Source of the DNA: Aristaeella hokkaidonensis
Lineage (GTDB): Bacteria; Bacillota; Clostridia; Christensenellales; Aristaeellaceae
Length of the DNA: 64,000 bases
Reading direction: 5' to 3'
Assembly: GCF_018128945.1 (NCBI RefSeq)
Contig: NZ_CP068393.1
Span: forward strand, 3,038,001-3,102,000
In this document: one piece after another, positions 25,510 through 63,548 of the stretch
Numbering within the stretch: the first letter of the stretch is position 1
Layout: each line of letters starts with the position of its first letter
Made by a program: the position numbers and the translations under genes
Notes under the pieces: generated by a model
What the model was told of the DNA's origin: nothing
Seen by the model: only the letters and a program-made list of their open reading frames with translations
Databases searched by the model: none

Positions 25510-27219
25510 GTGAAGAAAATCATTTCCTGGTTGCTGGTTGCCGTGATGGCAATCGGTATGTGCTCCTGGGCGTCCGCCGATCCGGTGAACGTGCTTGACT
25601 TTGAGGACGGCGTGTTTGCCTTCCTCGGCGTCTCCGCCGTCAAACCGAACGCGGATGCCGCCGCGTCCCTGGAAGTTGTGGATTACAACGGTTCCAAGGC
25701 GCTGCGCGTCGCCGCTCAGGGGATCCCCTATGTGGCCCTGAATCTGGAGGGCCTGGCCGGCGAAAAGCTGGCGGATGTTGCCGGTGTCTCCTTTGATATC
25801 GGTGTTGACAAGGCCGCGGACGGCAAGTTCTACGCGGTTTCCGGCGTGGTGTACAGCTACACCGGCGAAAACGCGGATGAGAACAAGGCCGACTGGTCTG
25901 TCTATATGGAGAAGAAGAATCCGCGCAATGTAAAGATTGCTTTCAAGGCGCCGTTTGTTGCCGGTGCGGGCAATTATGTCATGATCTCCCGTGAGGACCA
26001 GGCCGGCGGCGAACCCGCCACCTTCTACCTGGACAACATCCGGTTCCTGGACGCGGAAGGAAACGCCATCGCGCTGGATCCCGCCGCGGTCTATGTGGCG
26101 GAAGCTTCCGAGCGGGATCTGAGCAACCTCGTAGCCCTGACGAACGCTGTTGAGTTCCCGGATTTCCACAAGTCCGCCGGCGCCTGGGCGCAGGACGGTC
26201 TGGAAATGCCGCAGGAAATCATTGACGCCCTGGTGCCCGGTTCCGTGGTGGAAGTGGAATATGCCAGCGCGGACGGTTCCATGTGGATTGTCATGCCCTG
26301 GGCAACCGCCGGCTGGATGCGCGTGGGCCAGGGAACGGCTGCCATCAACAACAGCAAGACCATCGCCCAGATTCCCTATGAGATGATCGAAGCGCTCTGC
26401 GGCGAGGACAAATCTACCTGGGGTGCCATGATGCAGTGCGAAAGTGCTTCCGACTGGGAAGTCTTCGCTGTGCGCGTGGGCCAGCGGGCGAACCGCATCG
26501 TGCTGAAGAACGCGGTGGAATTCCCCGGCTTCACCAAGTCCGCCGACGCCTGGGCGCAGGACGGCCTGGAAATGCCGCAGGAAATCATCGACGCGCTGGT
26601 GCCCGGTTCTGTGGTGGAGATCACCTACAGCTCCGAGGACGGAGATATCTGGCTGGTGATGCCTTGGGCAACTGCCGGCTGGATGCGCGTATCCCAGGGA
26701 ACCGCAGCGAAGATGGGCGGCAAGGCTTATATCACCTATGAAGAGATTGCTGCGCTCTGCGGCGAGGACAAGTCCACCTGGGGTGCCATGATGCAGTGCG
26801 AAGGCTCCTCTCCCTGGGAGGTTTACGGCGTCCGTGTGGGCCAGAAAGCGGAATTCTTCGGCCTGACCAACCTGGTGGAATTCCCCGGCTTCACCAAGTC
26901 CGCCGACGCCTGGGCGCAGGACGGCCTGGAAATGCCGCAGGAAATCATCGACGCCCTGGTGCCCGGCAGCGTTGTGACCATCTCCTATGATTCTGAAGAC
27001 GGCAACATGTGGCTGGTCATGCCCTGGGCGGCGGCCGGCTGGATGCGCGTGGGCAACGACGGCGCGGATGTGGCGGACGGCAAAATCGCACAGGTGACCT
27101 ATGAACAGATCGAGGCGCTGTGCGGCGAGGACAAGTCCACCTGGGGCGCCATGATGCAGTGCGAAAGTTCCTCTGCCTGGAATGTTTATTCTGTGGCCGT
27201 TGGCCAGGCGATCAAATAA
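25510..27219 (+). CDS. Secreted protein with carbohydrate-binding-like domain and three tandem repeat domains
   Basis: 569 aa. A signal peptide ending WASA is followed by a jelly-roll domain (about 25-200: VLDFEDGVFAF... FYLDNIRFLD) like those in carbohydrate-binding modules. Three near-identical domains of about 121 residues follow (start codons near 26128, 26493 and 26856). Each contains the order NxVEFPxF, SAxAWAQDGLEMP, QEIIDALVPGSVV, WxVMPWAxAGWMRV, GEDKSTWGAMMQCE and a closing VxVGQ. Repeats 2 and 3 share a long stretch of identical DNA, a sign of recent duplication or gene conversion. I do not recognise the repeat family. Many aromatic residues and the operon context suggest multivalent glycan binding. 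Confidence 0.78.
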   Translation: MKKIISWLLVAVMAIGMCSWASADPVNVLDFEDGVFAFLGVSAVKPNADAAASLEVVDYNGSKALRVAAQGIPYVALNLEGLAGEKLADVAGVSFDIGVDKAADGKFYAVSGVVYSYTGENADENKADWSVYMEKKNPRNVKIAFKAPFVAGAGNYVMISREDQAGGEPATFYLDNIRFLDAEGNAIALDPAAVYVAEASERDLSNLVALTNAVEFPDFHKSAGAWAQDGLEMPQEIIDALVPGSVVEVEYASADGSMWIVMPWATAGWMRVGQGTAAINNSKTIAQIPYEMIEALCGEDKSTWGAMMQCESASDWEVFAVRVGQRANRIVLKNAVEFPGFTKSADAWAQDGLEMPQEIIDALVPGSVVEITYSSEDGDIWLVMPWATAGWMRVSQGTAAKMGGKAYITYEEIAALCGEDKSTWGAMMQCEGSSPWEVYGVRVGQKAEFFGLTNLVEFPGFTKSADAWAQDGLEMPQEIIDALVPGSVVTISYDSEDGNMWLVMPWAAAGWMRVGNDGADVADGKIAQVTYEQIEALCGEDKSTWGAMMQCESSSAWNVYSVAVGQAIK

Positions 27220-29577: not shown

Positions 29578-29606
29578 TGGACAAAGCCCCGGAATACTGA
29601 TATACT
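29578..29606 (+). promoter_or_regulatory. Promoter of the GTPase-nuclease gene
   Basis: TGGACA, 17-bp spacer, TATACT with an upstream TGA giving an extended -10. Start expected about 29613, 57 bases before the ATG. Confidence 0.6.
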
Positions 29607-29669
29607 TCATGCCATCAAAACCTGAATCCAAAGTCCATCCGGAAGACTATAAAAAGGAGGGAAACAGCC

Positions 29670-32306
29670 ATGGCGGGAAAGCTGACGGTGGGTCTGGCGG
29701 CCCATGTGGACGCGGGCAAAACCACCCTGTCCGAAGCTATGCTGTTTCTCAGCGGCGCAGTGCGCCGCCAGGGCCGGGTGGATCACGGGGATGCCTTCCT
29801 GGATACGGAACAGATGGAGAAGGAACGGGGCATCACGATTTTCTCCAAGGAAGCACGGCTGACCTGGGGAAAAACAGACCTGACGCTGGTGGACACTCCC
29901 GGCCATACGGACTTCGCCGGGGAAACGGAGCGGGCCATCAGCGTGATGGATGCCGCGGTGCTGGTGATCAGCGCCACGGAGGGCGTCCAGTCCCATACCC
30001 GGACCCTGTGGAAACTGCTGGAGCGCAGCGGGGTGCCGGTAATCCTGTTTGCGAATAAAATGGACCGGTACGAGGGAAGCCGGAAGGAACTGATTACAGC
30101 GCTGGGCGCACTGTCTGACCGGATCGCGGATTTTACCGGAGATCCCTCAGAGGCGGCTGCCCTGTGCGATGAGACCTGCCTGGATCTGTACCTGCGGGAC
30201 GGCGCTGTGCCTGAAAAACGGATCCGCTCCCTGATCCGGGAACGGAAGCTGTTCCCCTGCTTTTTCGGGGCGGCCCTGAAGAACGAGGGTGTGGAACCGC
30301 TGCTGGATTTCCTGGCCGGGTTCGCGGAGGAAAAAGAGTACCCGAAGGAATTCGGCGCGCGGGTGTACAAGATTGCCCGGGATCCCCAGGGAAACCGGCT
30401 GACCTTCCTGAAGGTGACGGGCGGGGAACTGAAAACCCGGGACCAGGTGACCGGCGGCACCGGAGAAAACAGCTGGACGGAAAAGATTGCCGAAATCCGG
30501 CAGTATTCCGGGGCAAGATATAGCGCGGCGCAGCGGGCGGCGGCCGGAGAACTGTGCTGCGTGACAGGACTGAGCAAAGCCATGCCCGGGGATGGCCTGG
30601 GCGCTGAATATATCAAAGGGGAGCAGACCCTGCGCCCCTGCTATGCCTGCCGGGTGATTCCCGGCCCCGGGGAAGACCTGCACAAGGTGCTGGACTGCCT
30701 GAAGACGCTGACGGAAGAGGAACCGCTGCTGCAGACAGAGTTTGTGGAAGCCCGGCGGGAGATCCGGGTGCACTCCATGGGAGACGTGTACCTGGAGGTT
30801 CTCCGCCGGCAGATGAAGGACCGCTTCGGGATTGAGATTTCCTTCGGCGAGACAAGCGTGTTGTACCGGGAAACCATTATGGCTCCGGCTGAAGGCGTGG
30901 GCCACTATGAGCCGCTGCGCCACTACGCGGAGGTGCACCTGTGGATGGAGCCCCTGCCCGCCGGCAGCGGCCTGGTGTTTGACACGGACGTGTCCACGGA
31001 CGACCTGGCGCTGAACTGGCAGCGGCTGATCCTGACCCACCTGCAGGAAAAGATTCACCGGGGCATCCTGACCGGCGCCCCGATCACGGATATGAAAATC
31101 ACCCTGATCGCCGGAAAGGCTCACCTGAAGCATACGGAGGGCGGGGATTTCCGGCAGGCCACCTACCGGGCGGTCCGCCAGGGCCTGATGAAGGCCGGAT
31201 GCGTACTGCTGGAGCCCTATCTGTCGCTGGAAATCACCGTGCCCCAGGAAGCCCTGGGCCGGGTAATGAACGACCTGACCCTGATGGGCGGCAGGCCGGA
31301 AGGACCGGAGGACGCGGAGGAAGGACTCCGGAAGATTCGGGCTGTGGTGCCTGCTTCCGCCTGCCGGAACTATGCCCGGGACCTGAGCGCGCGGACCGGA
31401 GGGGCGGGACGGATGATTGCTTCCTTTTCCGCATACCTGCCCTGCGCGGAGGCGGAAAAGGTGATTGCGGAAAAAGCCTATGATCCGCTCCGGGACGTGA
31501 TGAATCCGGCGGATTCCGTATTTTGCTCCCACGGTGCCGGGGTTTCGGTTCCCTGGGACCAGGTGGAGCAGTATATGCACCTGCCTTTAAAAGAGGAAAG
31601 GAAAAAAGCGGAAGCCGCTCCGGCTGTCCGGACGGTCGGCGCCGCGCCGTATCGGGGGACCGCGGAGGAAGAGGAAACCCTGCGGCACATCTTTGAAAAA
31701 ACCTACGGACCGGTAAAGGCCCAGCGGCTGATGAACCCTGTGCCGAAGGAAACCCCGGCGGAAAAACTGCCGGAGGAGAAACGGACGCCGGCTCCGGAGG
31801 GCGAGATCCTGCTGGTGGACGGCTATAATGTGCTGTTTGCCTGGGATGAGTGGAAGGACCGGGTACAGGAAAACTTCGACGCGGCCCGGATGCAGCTGAC
31901 GGAGCTGATGTGCGACTACGCGGGCATGACGGGACGGGAGGTTATCCTGGTTTTTGACGCCTACAAGGTGAAAGGGAATCCCGGATCCGCGGAAAAATAC
32001 AAGAATATCTACGTGGTCTATACCCGGGAGGCACAGACCGCGGACGCCTATATTGAAAAAACCACCCTGCTGGCCCGGAACCGGGCGAGGGTGCGGGTGG
32101 TGACCTCCGACCGGCCGGAGCAGCTGATTGCGCTGGGCAATGAAGCGCTGCGCACTTCCGCCCGGGAATTCCGGCGGGAGGTGATCGGCGTGCAGGGAAG
32201 CGTTGCCGAATACCTGCAAAAAAACTACCGCCCTGGAACGGAACGTTCACTGGAGCGGCTGTATAAGGAAGCCTGGAAGAAATCCAGGGAGAATAATGAC
32301 GCGTAG
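29670..32306 (+). CDS. TetM/EF-G-like ribosomal GTPase fused to a Rae1/YacP-type NYN nuclease domain
   Basis: 878 aa. Residues 1 to about 640 match tetracycline ribosomal-protection factors: the P-loop AHVDAGKTT, ERGITI switch 1, DTPGHTDF switch 2, NKMD, then EF-G-like domains II-V (GAPITDMKITLIAGKAHLKH and LTLMGGRPEG in the ribosome-contacting part). A charged Pro/Glu linker (about 645-710) joins a NYN/PIN domain (about 712-865). Its acidic residues are all present: Asp717 in LLVDGYNV, Asp763 in VFDAYK, Asp792 in TADAYIE and Asp814 in VVTSD. Stand-alone YacP (Rae1) cuts mRNA inside the ribosomal A site, so this protein could bring a nuclease to stalled ribosomes by its own GTPase. Tetracycline resistance itself is not shown. 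AAGGAGGG fixes the start. Confidence 0.9.
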   Translation: MAGKLTVGLAAHVDAGKTTLSEAMLFLSGAVRRQGRVDHGDAFLDTEQMEKERGITIFSKEARLTWGKTDLTLVDTPGHTDFAGETERAISVMDAAVLVISATEGVQSHTRTLWKLLERSGVPVILFANKMDRYEGSRKELITALGALSDRIADFTGDPSEAAALCDETCLDLYLRDGAVPEKRIRSLIRERKLFPCFFGAALKNEGVEPLLDFLAGFAEEKEYPKEFGARVYKIARDPQGNRLTFLKVTGGELKTRDQVTGGTGENSWTEKIAEIRQYSGARYSAAQRAAAGELCCVTGLSKAMPGDGLGAEYIKGEQTLRPCYACRVIPGPGEDLHKVLDCLKTLTEEEPLLQTEFVEARREIRVHSMGDVYLEVLRRQMKDRFGIEISFGETSVLYRETIMAPAEGVGHYEPLRHYAEVHLWMEPLPAGSGLVFDTDVSTDDLALNWQRLILTHLQEKIHRGILTGAPITDMKITLIAGKAHLKHTEGGDFRQATYRAVRQGLMKAGCVLLEPYLSLEITVPQEALGRVMNDLTLMGGRPEGPEDAEEGLRKIRAVVPASACRNYARDLSARTGGAGRMIASFSAYLPCAEAEKVIAEKAYDPLRDVMNPADSVFCSHGAGVSVPWDQVEQYMHLPLKEERKKAEAAPAVRTVGAAPYRGTAEEEETLRHIFEKTYGPVKAQRLMNPVPKETPAEKLPEEKRTPAPEGEILLVDGYNVLFAWDEWKDRVQENFDAARMQLTELMCDYAGMTGREVILVFDAYKVKGNPGSAEKYKNIYVVYTREAQTADAYIEKTTLLARNRARVRVVTSDRPEQLIALGNEALRTSAREFRREVIGVQGSVAEYLQKNYRPGTERSLERLYKEAWKKSRENNDA

Positions 32307-32312
32307 GGCCGG

Positions 32313-33332
32313 TTAAGCCGCAGGAGCCTCTCCTGCGGTTTTTGTTTCCTTCCGGCACAGGCACAGGTACAGGATCACCGTTACAATCGTGGTCGCCAGC
32401 AGTACGCAGGTGCCGAAGGAACTCAGGTTATAGGCAAGCCAGTTGTAGACGCCCTCCGGCAGCAGGGATTGAAAATGCCAGGGCTTGTCCATCGCGTACT
32501 GCATGATCCCGTTCAGCACATAGCTTATCAGGTAAATCACCAGGGCCCATCCCGGGAAGCGCCCGCTCCGCTGTTTCACCCTGTATCCGGCGCGGATGAA
32601 CAGGATGAGCATCACCACCGCGGCCAGCACCTGGTCCACATGCACAAAGAAGAAAATCAGGCAGTCCAGCCGGGTCAGCTCCAGGAAGAGCCGCACGGCG
32701 CATACCAGGAAGACGAAGCGCTCAAAGCGCAGCCCCTCCGGCAGGGGGCGGCCCTTCCGTGCCCGCAGCGCCATGCAGCCGACGATCACGAGGATCATAA
32801 GTGCCGCGATGGTGCACACGGCCAGGTACCATACGCCCCAGCTGTCCTTCACCGCGAAGGGGAACCGCGCAAACAGGTCACCGTCCGTCATGTCCTGTAG
32901 GCCGATGTCGCGGAGATCCGCCAGTCCCAGTTCTCCCAGGAAAATTTCATCAAACCGCATCAGGGCTGCCAGTAATCCGGCGGGAAAGGCCAGCTGGTCC
33001 AGATACGCGGGGATTTCCCTGCGCTTTTTTGCGCGGAACAGCACCGGCGCCAGGCAGAAACCGATTGCGCCGCCGACGAAGGAAAACTGTTCCGGCACCA
33101 GCAGGAACCATTTGCCGGCACCGTTGGCCTTCAGTGCGGAATAGTTCAGCGCCACATAGACGCCCTTGGCAAAAAAGTAAGCCAGCACAAGGCCGGCAAT
33201 AAAAATGCCCGCCGCCAGGGGCACGGAAAGCCCGTGCTTCCGGACGCTCAGCAGGAAAAGGGAACCTGACACCAGGATACTCAGTGCCAGGATCGCAAAA
33301 TACAACGTTGTTGCAGAAAGCATATGGTTCAC
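32313..33332 (-). CDS. Divergent prolipoprotein diacylglyceryl transferase (Lgt)-like membrane protein
   Basis: About 339 aa from a GTG start at 33332 (ATG 33323 is the alternative), with seven or more hydrophobic segments. The region QFSFVGGAIGFCLAPVLF followed by YLDQLAFPAGLLAALMRFDEIFLGELG aligns by eye with the Lgt pattern (gly-rich loop, then D-x-x-AP and R-x-GNF-x-N-x-E), but the GNFxN signature is replaced by FDEIFLGE. It may therefore be a non-canonical Lgt relative with changed or lost activity. Starts 12 bases after the LRR-glycosidase stop, so in one operon with it. Confidence 0.6.
   Translation of the reverse strand: MNHMLSATTLYFAILALSILVSGSLFLLSVRKHGLSVPLAAGIFIAGLVLAYFFAKGVYVALNYSALKANGAGKWFLLVPEQFSFVGGAIGFCLAPVLFRAKKRREIPAYLDQLAFPAGLLAALMRFDEIFLGELGLADLRDIGLQDMTDGDLFARFPFAVKDSWGVWYLAVCTIAALMILVIVGCMALRARKGRPLPEGLRFERFVFLVCAVRLFLELTRLDCLIFFFVHVDQVLAAVVMLILFIRAGYRVKQRSGRFPGWALVIYLISYVLNGIMQYAMDKPWHFQSLLPEGVYNWLAYNLSSFGTCVLLATTIVTVILYLCLCRKETKTAGEAPAA
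32318..32343 (+). terminator. Terminator of the GTPase-nuclease gene
   Basis: CCGCAGGAG and CTCCTGCGG arms, CCT loop, then TTTTT. It overlaps the 3' end of the convergent Lgt-like gene. Confidence 0.85.
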
Positions 33333-33344
33333 CAGCTCACAGGA

Positions 33345-35186
33345 TTATTCAGCCGAGGCAAAATAGATGATATCGGTCAGTTTCCGCTGGGACTGATAAC
33401 CCAGCTCGTTGACCTTGTTTCCTCTGAAGAAGAGCAGGGTGGAATCGCCGCCATCCAGGTTATAGGCGATCTTTACGTCCAGTGTTGCGACAAAATCGGC
33501 AAACTGATGGAGGGTCATGCCGCCGTTCTTCTGGGAAGGTCCGGCACAGCATACGACTTTGTAATGCAGGTGATCTACCTGGCAGATGCAGATCCGCTGA
33601 CGGGGATCCATCCAGGCCATATTGATCCAGCGATCAGTGCCGCGGAAGTCGTCCACAGGACGGCCGTTTTCCACCAGGATCGGACCGAAAGAGAAGGAAT
33701 TCAGCACCCGCTTGCCGTTGATATGCGCGGGAACTGATCCTTCCTGGGGTTGATGAATGCCTGTGAAATCGCCGTCTTCATCAACCAGGAGTACGTCCAT
33801 CAGCAATGCATTCCACTTGCCGACAGGATCCAGGTTGTTCTCATACAGGGTTCCCTGGCGGACGATGTATCCCAATCCACGCTTTTCGGTGCTGCTGAAA
33901 TAGTCCCCGTTGATGGCGAGTACGGCATTGGCACGCTCTGCCAGCCGGATGGCGTCCATCTGGCCTGTCGTTTCAAAAGAACCGTTCAGGCTGGCTGCAA
34001 GGGTGCGGAGCTGGGAAGCGTCTTTCAGGAGAATATCAGCAGTCCAATACTGACAATCTTCATAGACACCACTTCCGATGGAGACCGTGATGGTGGAATC
34101 GGAATAAGTATCATTGCCGGTATATCCGGAGGCCTTCGGCGCGCTGCCGATGGAATAATCAATGGGAAGCATATATCCCTTGTCTGAAAAATCCTGTGGA
34201 GCCAGCAGTTCCAGCGGCTCTTCCGATTCCGGAATGACGACATCCTCCGAAGGCCAGCTGTCTTCGAAGGGGACATACTCAGTCCGGGGGTGAAGATGGT
34301 TTTCACCAAAGTTTTTCAGGATCACTTCGTAATGGGGATCCCGTTTGGTCTGTGTGATCATCCGCCAGCCGCCGAGGGTGGAATAATGGGTGGTGTTGAT
34401 ATTGGTGTTCGGGAAGGCAGCGCGGATTGCGTCCACATCCTCACCGACGGGAACAGCGTTAATCTTCCGGCAGGAATACATCCAGAGCCGCTTCAGATTG
34501 GGAAGCTTCAGCACAGGGCTCAGATCCTCGATCCGGTTGAAGCACAGATTCAGATCCATCAGGTGATCGAGTCCTTCCAGCGGGGAGATATCCAGGATTC
34601 TGTTCTTGAACAGTTCCAGATATTCCAGATGCTTCAGAGAAGCAATGGGAGTGATATCTTCAATCGTGTTGCAGGCTACGATCAGGATCCGGAGGTTGGG
34701 CAGATCATACAGAAAGTCCAGATTGGTGACGTTGTTATGGCCTACATCCAGTGCCATGAGGTTCCAGCAGTATTTCAGTACGGAAAAATCCTCACTGTTG
34801 TGCTTTGCACTGGTGTCGTTATGCAGCGTGGACCAGGAAGTATAGTCCGTACGCACCAGGTGCTCATGATCCCGGTTGCGGATCACCATGGTCCAGCCCC
34901 AGCGCATATCAGGATAGCGGGCAGCCAGCATATCACACTGGTCAGCGGTCATCCGGTTTTGCCACATATCTACCTGCCGAAGGGACGGCATCTGGTCAAG
35001 AAATGCGGTAAAGGCATCAAAGTCTGTAACGACAAAATTACCGAGGTCAATATACTCGGCATCCTGGGGGTAATCAGTTCCTTCATAAGAAATGGTCGTT
35101 CCGTCTGCGCTGGCGAAAAGCGGAAGAACCAGCAAAAGCAGCAGAAGGAGTAACAGAACGTGAAAATTGCAATGTTTATTGTCCAT
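33345..35186 (-). CDS. Secreted leucine-rich-repeat protein with C-terminal phosphodiester glycosidase (NAGPA) domain
   Basis: 613 aa from ATG 35186 (AGGA six bases ahead). A very hydrophobic signal peptide (run of Leu) is followed by LRRs in about residues 60-260 (LMALDVGHNNVTNLDFLYDLPNL, LEYLELFKNRILDISPL, LMDLNLCFNRIEDLSPV). After a linker comes a C-terminal domain from about residue 370 with AVLAINGDYFS, NSFSFGPILVENGRP, DPRQRICI and YNLDGGDSTLLFF. These are the hallmarks of the phosphodiester glycosidase family named for the enzyme that uncovers mannose-6-phosphate in animals. It probably acts on a phosphodiester-linked sugar at the cell surface, with the LRR as a binding platform. The combination is unusual. 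Confidence 0.85.
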   Translation of the reverse strand: MDNKHCNFHVLLLLLLLLLVLPLFASADGTTISYEGTDYPQDAEYIDLGNFVVTDFDAFTAFLDQMPSLRQVDMWQNRMTADQCDMLAARYPDMRWGWTMVIRNRDHEHLVRTDYTSWSTLHNDTSAKHNSEDFSVLKYCWNLMALDVGHNNVTNLDFLYDLPNLRILIVACNTIEDITPIASLKHLEYLELFKNRILDISPLEGLDHLMDLNLCFNRIEDLSPVLKLPNLKRLWMYSCRKINAVPVGEDVDAIRAAFPNTNINTTHYSTLGGWRMITQTKRDPHYEVILKNFGENHLHPRTEYVPFEDSWPSEDVVIPESEEPLELLAPQDFSDKGYMLPIDYSIGSAPKASGYTGNDTYSDSTITVSIGSGVYEDCQYWTADILLKDASQLRTLAASLNGSFETTGQMDAIRLAERANAVLAINGDYFSSTEKRGLGYIVRQGTLYENNLDPVGKWNALLMDVLLVDEDGDFTGIHQPQEGSVPAHINGKRVLNSFSFGPILVENGRPVDDFRGTDRWINMAWMDPRQRICICQVDHLHYKVVCCAGPSQKNGGMTLHQFADFVATLDVKIAYNLDGGDSTLLFFRGNKVNELGYQSQRKLTDIIYFASAE

Positions 35187-35361
35187 CTTGTTCCTGGTAC
35201 CGTGCGCGGTTGAAATTGTCTGCCAGGTCGGCGACATTTTCAAGCACTTTGTCCGGCTCTTTGATGTTGTTTGACTGGGGAGTGTTCTTTTTTATCCAGA
35301 GACCGATAACTGCAAGTACAACGAGAACAGCAAAGAAAACGATCATAAAAGTTCCGAACAT
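35176..35361 (-). CDS. Small single-pass membrane protein
   Basis: 61 aa from ATG 35361 (AGGAGG eleven bases ahead): one N-terminal membrane helix (MIVFFAVLVVLAVIGLWI) and a polar C-terminal tail ending in EQDGQ. It overlaps the start of the LRR-glycosidase gene by 11 bases, implying coupled translation and perhaps an accessory role for that secreted protein. No family recognised. Confidence 0.65.
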   Translation of the reverse strand: MFGTFMIVFFAVLVVLAVIGLWIKKNTPQSNNIKEPDKVLENVADLADNFNRARYQEQDGQ

Positions 35362-47664: not shown

Positions 47665-47829
47665 CTTCCGTCTCTCCCCCTTGTCAAGAACGATCAAAAC
47701 AACAAAAGATATTTTACGCTTTCAGGGCGTTTCAGGTCAAGGTGTATACGAATCATAAGGCAAAAAAATACAATGTAACCTGCCGGACAAAGAAAAACAA
47801 AAACCGGCAGGGAAAGAAACCTGCGGCTC

Positions 47830-47858
47830 TTGCTTTTCATGGCGGAAAACGGTATACT
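47830..47858 (+). promoter_or_regulatory. Promoter of the SRP RNA gene
   Basis: TTGCTT, 17-bp spacer, TATACT, placing the start at 47865-47866, the predicted RNA 5' end. Confidence 0.8.
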
Positions 47859-47865
47859 ATGCATT

Positions 47866-47992
47866 GCCGTTTGCGCGATGAGGATTGGGTCCTGTGCGAT
47901 CCTCCGGTGTGAACCCTGTCAGGTCCTGACGGAAGCAGCAGTAAGCGCTTGCGAGGATGTGCTGCAGGGGTGCCCGGTCTGAGCGCAGGCGG
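47866..47992 (+). ncRNA. ffs: Signal recognition particle RNA (small bacterial type)
   Basis: About 127 nt folding as one long hairpin: 5' GCCGTTTGCGC pairs with 3' GCGCAGGCGG. The apical domain has the SRP signature GTCAGGTCCTGACGGAAGCA and GCAGTAAG, where Ffh binds. A run of eight T residues follows. It lacks the Alu-domain extension found in Bacillus scRNA. Confidence 0.92.
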
Positions 47993-48079
47993 TTTTTTTT
48001 CTGTTCCGGGCATTGTATGCATATGGAAATATTGCTATACTTGCTTGGTGCAATTTTCTAGAGAGAAGGGTGATTTGCA

Positions 48080-62068: not shown

Positions 62069-62341
62069 TAACCAGGGGAGCCTGCTGGCCGGAAAGCCGA
62101 TCAACGGGCTCTCTATTTCTAAGGAAATATACATATTGTCGATATCTTCTATTTCTGATATTCTTTATTACATAAGTGGGCTGGTTGAAAGACCCGGGTC
62201 CACCCAGCGGCGGGGATGTTCCCCGCCATTTCTTGTATAATAGCGATTAAATGCCTGGTTGCAGGTGAAAGCAGGGATATATATACGTTGATTGTTTCAG
62301 CCCATTGAACCATAAAAAGCTCAGGGGGTTATTCGGTTGTG

Positions 62342-62589: not shown

Positions 62590-62618
62590 TTGACAAATAG
62601 GATTCCGTTTGCAATAAT
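62590..62618 (+). promoter_or_regulatory. Strong promoter driving the DUF3800 upstream RNA
   Basis: TTGACA, 17-bp spacer, AATAAT. Start about 62625, the first base of a hairpin. Confidence 0.72.
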
Positions 62619-62624
62619 ATAGAT

Positions 62625-62726
62625 GCGGGGAGAGATCCCACGCGTACCTGCCCAACGGAGTCGAGTGCTTAAGCGACTTGTAAAGTCGCCCGCAGCAGGG
62701 GGAAGCCGCCGTTATGGCGGCTTTTG
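62625..62726 (+). ncRNA. Candidate structured RNA upstream of DUF3800
   Basis: About 100 nt. H1 is GCGGGGA/TCCC-A-CGC with a GAGA (GNRA) tetraloop. A CCTGC/GCAGG stem (62647 and 62695) encloses two competing stems that share CGACT (AGTCG/CGACT versus GCGACTT/AAGTCGC). H3 is AAGCCGCC/GGCGGCTT followed by TTTT, a terminator. It ends 20 bases before the DUF3800 start. RNA motifs linked to DUF3800 genes have been reported from comparative genomics; whether this is one of them is not checked. Confidence 0.6.
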
Positions 62727-62746
62727 ATGTATATGGGGGAAACGGG

Positions 62747-63460
62747 ATGGATATCTTTGTATACTCAGATGAGTCTGGGGTATTTGACTGCTATCATAGT
62801 CAATACTTTGTATTTGGTGGAGTGGTTTTTCTGGACAATAAGACCATGGAATCTTCTGCCAGAAGATATCTTTCCGTTGAGCAGGAAATTCGGCAGGAAA
62901 ATATGATTGCTTCGGAAGATGAGCTGAAAGCAGCCAGTCTGGAGAGAAAGAACCAACGCCGGTTATTCCGAGTAACTAACAGAGAATTCCGTTTTGGTGT
63001 CGTTGTGGAGATTCCCAAACTAAAGATACGTGCTCAAATTGCTGATGATAAAAAATCCAGACAACGCTATATGGATTTTGCTTATAAAATTGCCATAAAG
63101 CGGTTTTTTTCTTCTTTAATTCAGGATGGAGCAATTAATCCTGTAGAGGTTAAGACAATTCACTTTTTTGTTGATCAACACACAACTGCTACAAATGGGC
63201 GCTATGAATTGAATGAGAATCTGGAGCAGGAGTTAATTCGAGGATCTTTCAATTTTGAATGGCAGATTTTCCATCCCCCGCTGTTTCCCAATGCAAAATC
63301 AGTCACTCTCAAGTATTGTGATTCCAGGAAAGTTGTACTGATTCGGGCTGCTGATATTATTGCAAATCGAATATATCACCTTGCGATTGAAAATACCCTT
63401 CGTTATCGGGAAAGCCCACATTTTTATGTATATGCTTTACCGGATAATGATCTGAAATAA
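62747..63460 (+). CDS. DUF3800-domain protein
   Basis: 237 aa from ATG 62747 (GGGGG about eight bases ahead). DUF3800 pattern: IFVYSDESGVFD at the start, YFVFGGVVF, a middle VKTIHFFVDQHTT and LIRAADIIANRIYH near the end, giving spaced acidic residues reminiscent of RNase H-like folds. GC content is lower than its surroundings. DUF3800 genes are common in phages and mobile elements, and their biochemical role is unproven. Expression probably needs read-through of the hairpin before it. Confidence 0.85.
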   Translation: MDIFVYSDESGVFDCYHSQYFVFGGVVFLDNKTMESSARRYLSVEQEIRQENMIASEDELKAASLERKNQRRLFRVTNREFRFGVVVEIPKLKIRAQIADDKKSRQRYMDFAYKIAIKRFFSSLIQDGAINPVEVKTIHFFVDQHTTATNGRYELNENLEQELIRGSFNFEWQIFHPPLFPNAKSVTLKYCDSRKVVLIRAADIIANRIYHLAIENTLRYRESPHFYVYALPDNDLK

Positions 63461-63548
63461 AGATGATGGCTGAGGGCGGAACAGGCAGCCGCTACCCGCA
63501 ATGACTTGCGTAGGAGATGCAGGAATCGTCACCCTGCCTCTATCATCT
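63461..63548 (+). ncRNA. Candidate structured RNA downstream of DUF3800
   Basis: The outer stem AGATGAT/ATCATCT (63461 and 63542) begins at the base after the DUF3800 stop codon. Inside is AGGCAG/CTGCCT (63483 and 63534), and within that a CTAC-CC-GCAA/TTGC-GTAG hairpin with TGAC loop (63492-63513). The nested pairing over 88 nt is unlikely to be coding. A separate terminator hairpin follows at 63568. Confidence 0.5.

Follow-up and report, generated by a model that had tools for sequence, protein, structure and literature searches.

Two kinds of protein bear on the gene described here: EF-G-type factors, which place domain IV in the ribosomal A site, and Rae1 (YacP), whose route of entry into paused ribosomes is, to our knowledge, not settled. 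In eukaryotic no-go decay, stalled ribosomes are acted upon by the Hbs1 GTPase with Dom34 and by the endonuclease Cue2. Rae1 of Bacillus subtilis (PF05991; PDB 5mq8 and 5mq9) is a stand-alone protein of ~170 aa; published work describes it as an endoribonuclease of the A site that may reach mRNA more readily on stalled ribosomes (PMC6613710, PMC12320835), and its gene, yacP/rae1, is co-transcribed with the rlmB homologue yacO (PMC6613710). Atkinson 2015 reported that the Tet proteins of ten Clostridiales species have acquired a YacP-like NYN domain, and suggested RNase-based resistance (PMC4342817).

Those clostridial proteins are almost surely the same as the GTPase-NYN fusions analysed here. 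We agree with Atkinson 2015 on their architecture and dispute the resistance reading; the accessible text of that paper gives them one sentence together with this reading, and the replacement of yacP and the non-Tet tip of domain IV are new here (PMC4342817). What is already in print, then, is the fusion itself, and what we add is its wide spread, the loss of yacP (including from its chromosomal slot), a clade of NYN domains with invariant acids and a distinct GTPase subfamily. No report of yacP loss from the rlmB-sigH slot was found in the literature; Condon 2018, reportedly on the distribution of Rae1, may already treat the fusions.

An intact gene for a translational GTPase with a C-terminal NYN nuclease

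The window, i.e., the whole stretch of 64,000 nucleotides that was analysed, has at 29670-32306 (+) one intact ORF of 878 codons that runs from EF-G-type GTPase domains I-V through a short conserved tail and a flexible linker into a complete NYN nuclease. The order of GTPase, linker and NYN domain had been proposed in an initial annotation made from the sequence alone, and both the Pfam matches and the uninterrupted frame confirmed it. The gene and its parts are as follows:

29670..32306 (+): GTPase-NYN fusion gene, complete; 878 aa plus stop
29578..29606 (+): promoter-like site, TGGACA-17-TATACT with TG before the -10 (consensus match only)
29654..29661 (+): ribosome-binding site AAGGAGGG, 8 nt before the ATG (sequence reading)
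29685..30320 (+): G domain (GTPase), residues 6-217, every G motif present (Pfam, conservation)
30351..30587 (+): domain II (EF-G_D2), residues 228-306; 25.6 bits, just below the cut-off of 27
30636..30848 (+): domain III, residues 323-393 (Pfam)
30858..31196 (+): domain IV, residues 397-509 (Pfam)
30900..30932 (+): domain IV loop I, GHYEPLRHYAE, residues 411-421; 9/11 positions invariant in 77 aligned fusions
31113..31154 (+): domain IV tip loop GKAHLKHTEGGDFR, residues 482-495; 10/14 positions invariant in 77 aligned fusions
31203..31454 (+): domain V (EFG_C), residues 512-595 (Pfam)
31512..31583 (+): short C-terminal tail, SVFC..G.G..V.W...MH, residues 615-638 (alignment)
31656..31718 (+): conserved linker helix, D.EL..IFERTYG type, residues 663-683 (alignment, within the low-confidence linker)
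31803..32303 (+): YacP/Rae1-type NYN nuclease domain, residues 712-878, with acids D717, D763, D792, E796 and D814
32315..32341 (+): terminator-like hairpin of 12 pairs, directly 3' of the stop codon (consensus match only)

Domain II excepted, every domain scored above its curated Pfam cut-off, and the G motifs and domains I-V are those of the EF-G/EF-2 superfamily. The linker between the GTPase and the NYN domain was predicted with low confidence apart from the conserved helix, which, among the sequences compared, was seen in fusions only. With a ribosome-binding site of its own, a promoter-like site in front and a terminator-like hairpin directly behind the stop, the gene probably forms a transcription unit by itself. 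No operon partner was found: among the gene neighbours of 80 fusions (ORFs picked crudely and clustered, many of the loci being short-flanked), two families recurred in at least four loci, neither of them within 1.5 kb of the fusion. The genome of the window consists of one contig (3.39 Mb), and the gene is thus chromosomal there.

The fused NYN domain is of the Rae1 type and probably arose once

The C-terminal domain matched PF05991 (Rae1/YacP) with 147.2 bits against a curated cut-off of 24.6. Searches with the full chain (Foldseek, VIA-align) listed EF-G-type GTPases throughout; we therefore folded the NYN domain and searched it by itself, and recovered the Rae1 fold. The initial annotation had described this domain as an NYN nuclease with intact acidic residues, and this held across homologues: all five active-site acids are kept in 104/104 fusions and in 38/38 stand-alone proteins.

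A phylogeny against stand-alone YacP, likewise proposed in the initial annotation, was built from a subsample of the fusions (roughly every third, L032 omitted) and all 38 stand-alone proteins. The 39 fusions fell on one side and the 38 stand-alones on the other (SH-aLRT 100; root for drawing only), and the fused NYN domain thus probably has a single origin. The idea that stand-alone YacPs are broken-off fusions was rejected, as the linker motif is present in 0/38 of them.

Compared with Rae1 of B. subtilis, the nuclease sits here as the C-terminal domain of an 878-aa GTPase and at another locus. Moreover, the Rae1 C-terminal end, kept by 38/38 stand-alones, is missing from 35/100 fusions; the window's own fusion retains it. 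In B. subtilis, the change R166P falls in this end; it came up among suppressor alleles of rae1, which the authors interpret as inactivating (PMC6613710). Loss of the end from 35/100 fusions would follow if the GTPase had taken over the contact with the ribosome.

The fusion is common in the sampled class and appears to have replaced yacP

In a class sample of 138 genomes, 90 had a PF05991 match and 48 had none, which indicates that Rae1 function is dispensable. The matching frames were 734-937 aa long in 50 genomes, 168-217 aa in 39 and 351 aa in one (G443), and in 50/50 of the genomes with long frames a GTPase-profile match lay beside the NYN match. G443, whose 351-aa NYN frame and 588-aa GTPase frame share a contig and have the look of a split fusion, was omitted from the counts, as was G517, whose GTPase is cut at a contig end; in G460, a further GTPase fragment, cut by the end of a contig, accompanies the fusion. 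A phylum sample of 398 genomes yielded 23 fusions, 7 of them shared between the two overlapping samples, for a total of 66 carriers. A search for related loci confirmed at least 598 stretches, of which 80, chosen as nearest relatives and not as a census, were retained, all of them fusions. The fusion is thus common in the sampled class, in many gut Clostridia.

Nearly all carriers have one copy of the gene. Two fusion genes on different contigs were seen in G519 (61% complete), the only such case among the 50 class carriers. Two PLSDB plasmid-labelled records of 252 and 518 kb bear the fusion, indicating that it is not always on the main chromosome. Fusions with 50% and 44% identity also occur in MT835563 and MT835514, both labelled Bacteriophage sp. 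and from human faeces; the one opened is an unverified, unannotated scaffold, perhaps of host DNA, and we claim no phage gene or origin.

The initial annotation had proposed checking whether a separate yacP is missing where the fusion is present. It is missing from the window's genome, and stand-alone YacP above the Pfam cut-off was found in 0/66 carriers (G522 has a second PF05991 match of 21.3 bits, below the cut-off). On the class-sample table (0/50/39/48, with G443 left out and kinship ignored), Fisher's p was 4e-10. In the non-carriers G451 and G497, the stand-alone gene stands in an arrangement that we take, from reading the sequences, to be cysS-mrnC-rlmB-yacP-sigH. RlmB served as the query in 16 carriers; eight of these, the window's genome included, have rlmB and sigH close enough to be read together. 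An intact yacP was found between them in 0/8, and 6/8 gave no significant yacP match; the window's own genome, whose Rae1-type domain is fused, has an empty slot where the small stand-alone protein would be encoded. G421 holds a decayed yacP between rlmB and sigH (L201, about 2383-2836; 46% identity, E 7e-20, many stops); in G500, 31 codons of yacP remain in the same slot (E 8e-7). The other 8/16 carriers, which showed no sigH within the 1.5-kb flank, did not enter the slot test, and their flanks gave no yacP match either.

Carriers and non-carriers can be close relatives: carriers G421 and G522 share a genus with non-carrier G451, and the families f161 and f162 are also mixed. Five non-carriers in carrier-holding groups (G451, G497, G498, G447 and G472) keep yacP and have no subfamily GTPase at all, and the Rae1 nuclease can therefore work without the GTPase. 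One form stands for the other, which is the pattern that functional equivalence predicts. Judged by these gene inventories and slots, replacement of stand-alone YacP by the fusion in carriers is well supported, the joint form having displaced the free enzyme across a large part of the sampled class.

The GTPase half groups in a subfamily of its own

H79 of the G domain is kept in 81/81 fusions readable there. By BLAST, residues 1-600 were 28-31% identical to four Tet rows (TetM, TetW, TetB(P) and one Tet-like gene) and 25-29% to EF-G, as against 39-42% to six un-fused relatives and 46-48% to two other fusions. In a quick GTPase tree of 45 rows rooted on EF-G (roughly every third fusion used, L032 and L109 omitted; one EF-G branch was flagged as long), fusions and un-fused relatives formed a clade (SH-aLRT 99) beside the four Tet rows (100), placing the fusion outside the latter. 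The fusions were not quite one clade in this tree: an un-fused protein of Ligilactobacillus salivarius was intermixed with them, the branches concerned being poorly resolved.

At the tip of domain IV, the fusion has HLKHTEGGDFR, TetM YSPVSTPADFR and EF-G HPVDSSEMAFK. The tip of the fusion is different from that of TetM and nearly invariant; together with loop I, it has 19/25 positions invariant, versus 122/878 in the whole protein. The tail that follows domain V is also found in the aligned un-fused relatives, whereas the rows of TetM, TetW, TetB(P) and EF-G do not have it. Curated models gave a concordant picture: the fusion reached 391.3 bits with NCBIfam tet_protect (cut-off 775; TetM control 879.8), 264.3 with TetM/W/O/S (cut-off 1100; TetM control 1339.8) and 290.7 with EF-G proper, TIGR00484 (cut-off 659.4). 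Among the best 25 of 40 NCBIfam families, no Tet or EF-G cut-off was reached by the fusion, nor was one by three un-fused relatives, whereas the TetM control passed its own.

The fusion thus has in common with Tet(M), Tet(W) and TetB(P) the order of domains I-V, a neighbouring clade and the DFR of the tip loop, but differs from them in overall identity, tip loop and model scores, and has a nuclease domain added. A leader-peptide gene is a feature of tet(M). As for EF-G, besides the low identity, the window's genome has two further EF-G-type genes, separate from the fusion; its other GTPase matches are presumably, from their frame lengths, LepA, TypA, RF3, EF-Tu (two) and IF2. By profile, tree and tip loop, the GTPase of the fusion is a distinct subfamily of the EF-G/Tet superfamily, with un-fused members, and not a TetM. 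The initial annotation had likened it to TetM and considered a role on drug-blocked ribosomes. With the Tet model failed, the TetM tip absent and a position outside the Tet clade, neither the functional likeness nor that role finds support. A defence system was likewise rejected: the sole PADLOC hit was to LeoA, a weak one (E 2e-4) that fell on the G domain.

A putative Rae1 brought to the ribosome by its own GTPase

We consider it fairly probable that the fusion is the clostridial Rae1, a ribosome-dependent endoribonuclease that the attached GTPase would bring to the ribosome. What can be read from the sequences is that both halves are intact, that the NYN domains form one clade and that the fusion stands in for the lost stand-alone yacP; from these we infer a GTP-dependent recruitment that would deliver the NYN domain to the A site. 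In this mechanism, the GTPase would dock in the factor site of paused ribosomes, bind, and then probe or clear the A site, while a tether of ~70 residues would hold the nuclease next to it. Domain IV and the NYN domain cannot share the A site, and we therefore propose that they use it sequentially, one-step delivery being unlikely: NYN would cut mRNA, its presumed target, in the A site as domain IV leaves, and tmRNA, which is present in the window's own genome, would then clear the ribosome. The constraint on the two domain-IV loops speaks for the relevance of the A site, and the initial annotation's idea of a self-delivered A-site nuclease would fit what was seen. We found no experiment on the fusion in the literature. 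A ribosome-entering GTPase attached to Rae1 makes the question of how Rae1 is recruited directly testable.

Alternatively, the chain may hold two independent ribosome enzymes, with NYN acting as an ordinary Rae1 and the GTPase doing another job (e.g., translocase-like or A-site-clearing), a reading that we regard as unlikely and that draws on the un-fused relatives. An un-fused subfamily GTPase was found in 12 genomes (G367, borderline at 608 bits, was omitted, and the phylum sample scored only three candidates per genome). In 6/12 it occurs with a stand-alone YacP and in 6/12 without any PF05991 match, and it thus seems that the subfamily GTPase can serve a purpose where no NYN domain is present. 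Given this even split, we claim no functional link through co-occurrence. Of the 39 class genomes in which YacP stands alone, 37 lack the subfamily GTPase. One un-fused member, LSL_RS10690 on the L. salivarius UCC118 megaplasmid, is 41% identical to the fusion and has a similar tip (HT.GGDFR) and the same SVFC...MH tail, but is without the linker helix and the NYN domain. Its gene (L169, 5520-7911) is divergent from, and adjoins, a plasmid-borne rpsN (ribosomal protein S14). No functional work on this GTPase subfamily, to which the fusion now points, was found in the literature. Against two independent enzymes, the single clade of fused NYN domains and the conserved linker helix indicate that the joint form has long been maintained, and the C-terminal end that every stand-alone keeps has been lost from many fusions.

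A bolder version of Rae1 delivery, which we offer tentatively, would make the fusion a bacterial equivalent of no-go decay in one polypeptide: driven by GTP and equipped with a new type of domain-IV tip, it would first probe or clear the A site of a stalled ribosome, and on its leaving the tethered Rae1 would cut the exposed codon, the un-fused relatives being a family of A-site-clearing GTPases. The likeness lies in a translational GTPase and an A-site mRNA endonuclease on stalled ribosomes; in eukaryotes, however, these are separate, unrelated proteins, and the comparison is an analogy only.

Some EF-G-like GTPases act on ribosomal subunits, and the fusion could by the same token be a ribosome-assembly or turnover factor, its GTPase working on subunits or idle ribosomes and its NYN domain trimming rRNA or tRNA. 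Such a role, in line with what PMC4342817 quotes as an earlier proposal for NYN domains of the YacP type, seems quite improbable to us: the stand-alone Rae1 for which the fusion stands in is described as cutting mRNA in the A site (PMC6613710, PMC12320835), and few parts of the protein are as constrained as the A-site tip of domain IV.

Lastly, membership of the wider Tet/EF-G group, the two large plasmid records, public annotation as a tetracycline resistance protein and the suggestion in print (PMC4342817) could be taken to mean that a ribosomal protection protein with an RNase domain confers a new resistance to tetracycline or another drug, which is highly improbable for a gene that fails the curated Tet cut-offs, has the TetM tip replaced, is chromosomal in the window's genome, is present in one copy in nearly all carriers and replaces a housekeeping gene. 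The tetracycline idea thus has no support here. One fusion is publicly labelled 'TetM/TetW/TetO/TetS family tetracycline resistance ribosomal protection protein', as the initial annotation had foreseen, and another 'translation factor GTPase family protein'. Our results question the former label; as the gene is common among commensals, this bears on resistome counts.

Other features of the window

Three Rfam sRNA families lie within 1.4 kb on the + strand, namely DUF3800-XI (62177-62224), DUF3800-I (62618-62734) and skipping-rope RNA (63465-63544), and the DUF3800-I RNA overlaps the start of a DUF3800 gene at 62714-63460. A large bacterial SRP RNA is found at 47803-48010 (+). Closer to the fusion, 25510-27219 (+) encodes a putatively secreted protein with three CBM65 stretches, after ORFs that resemble sugar ABC transporter permeases, and 33345-35243 (-) joins leucine-rich repeats to a phosphodiester glycosidase (NAGPA) domain.
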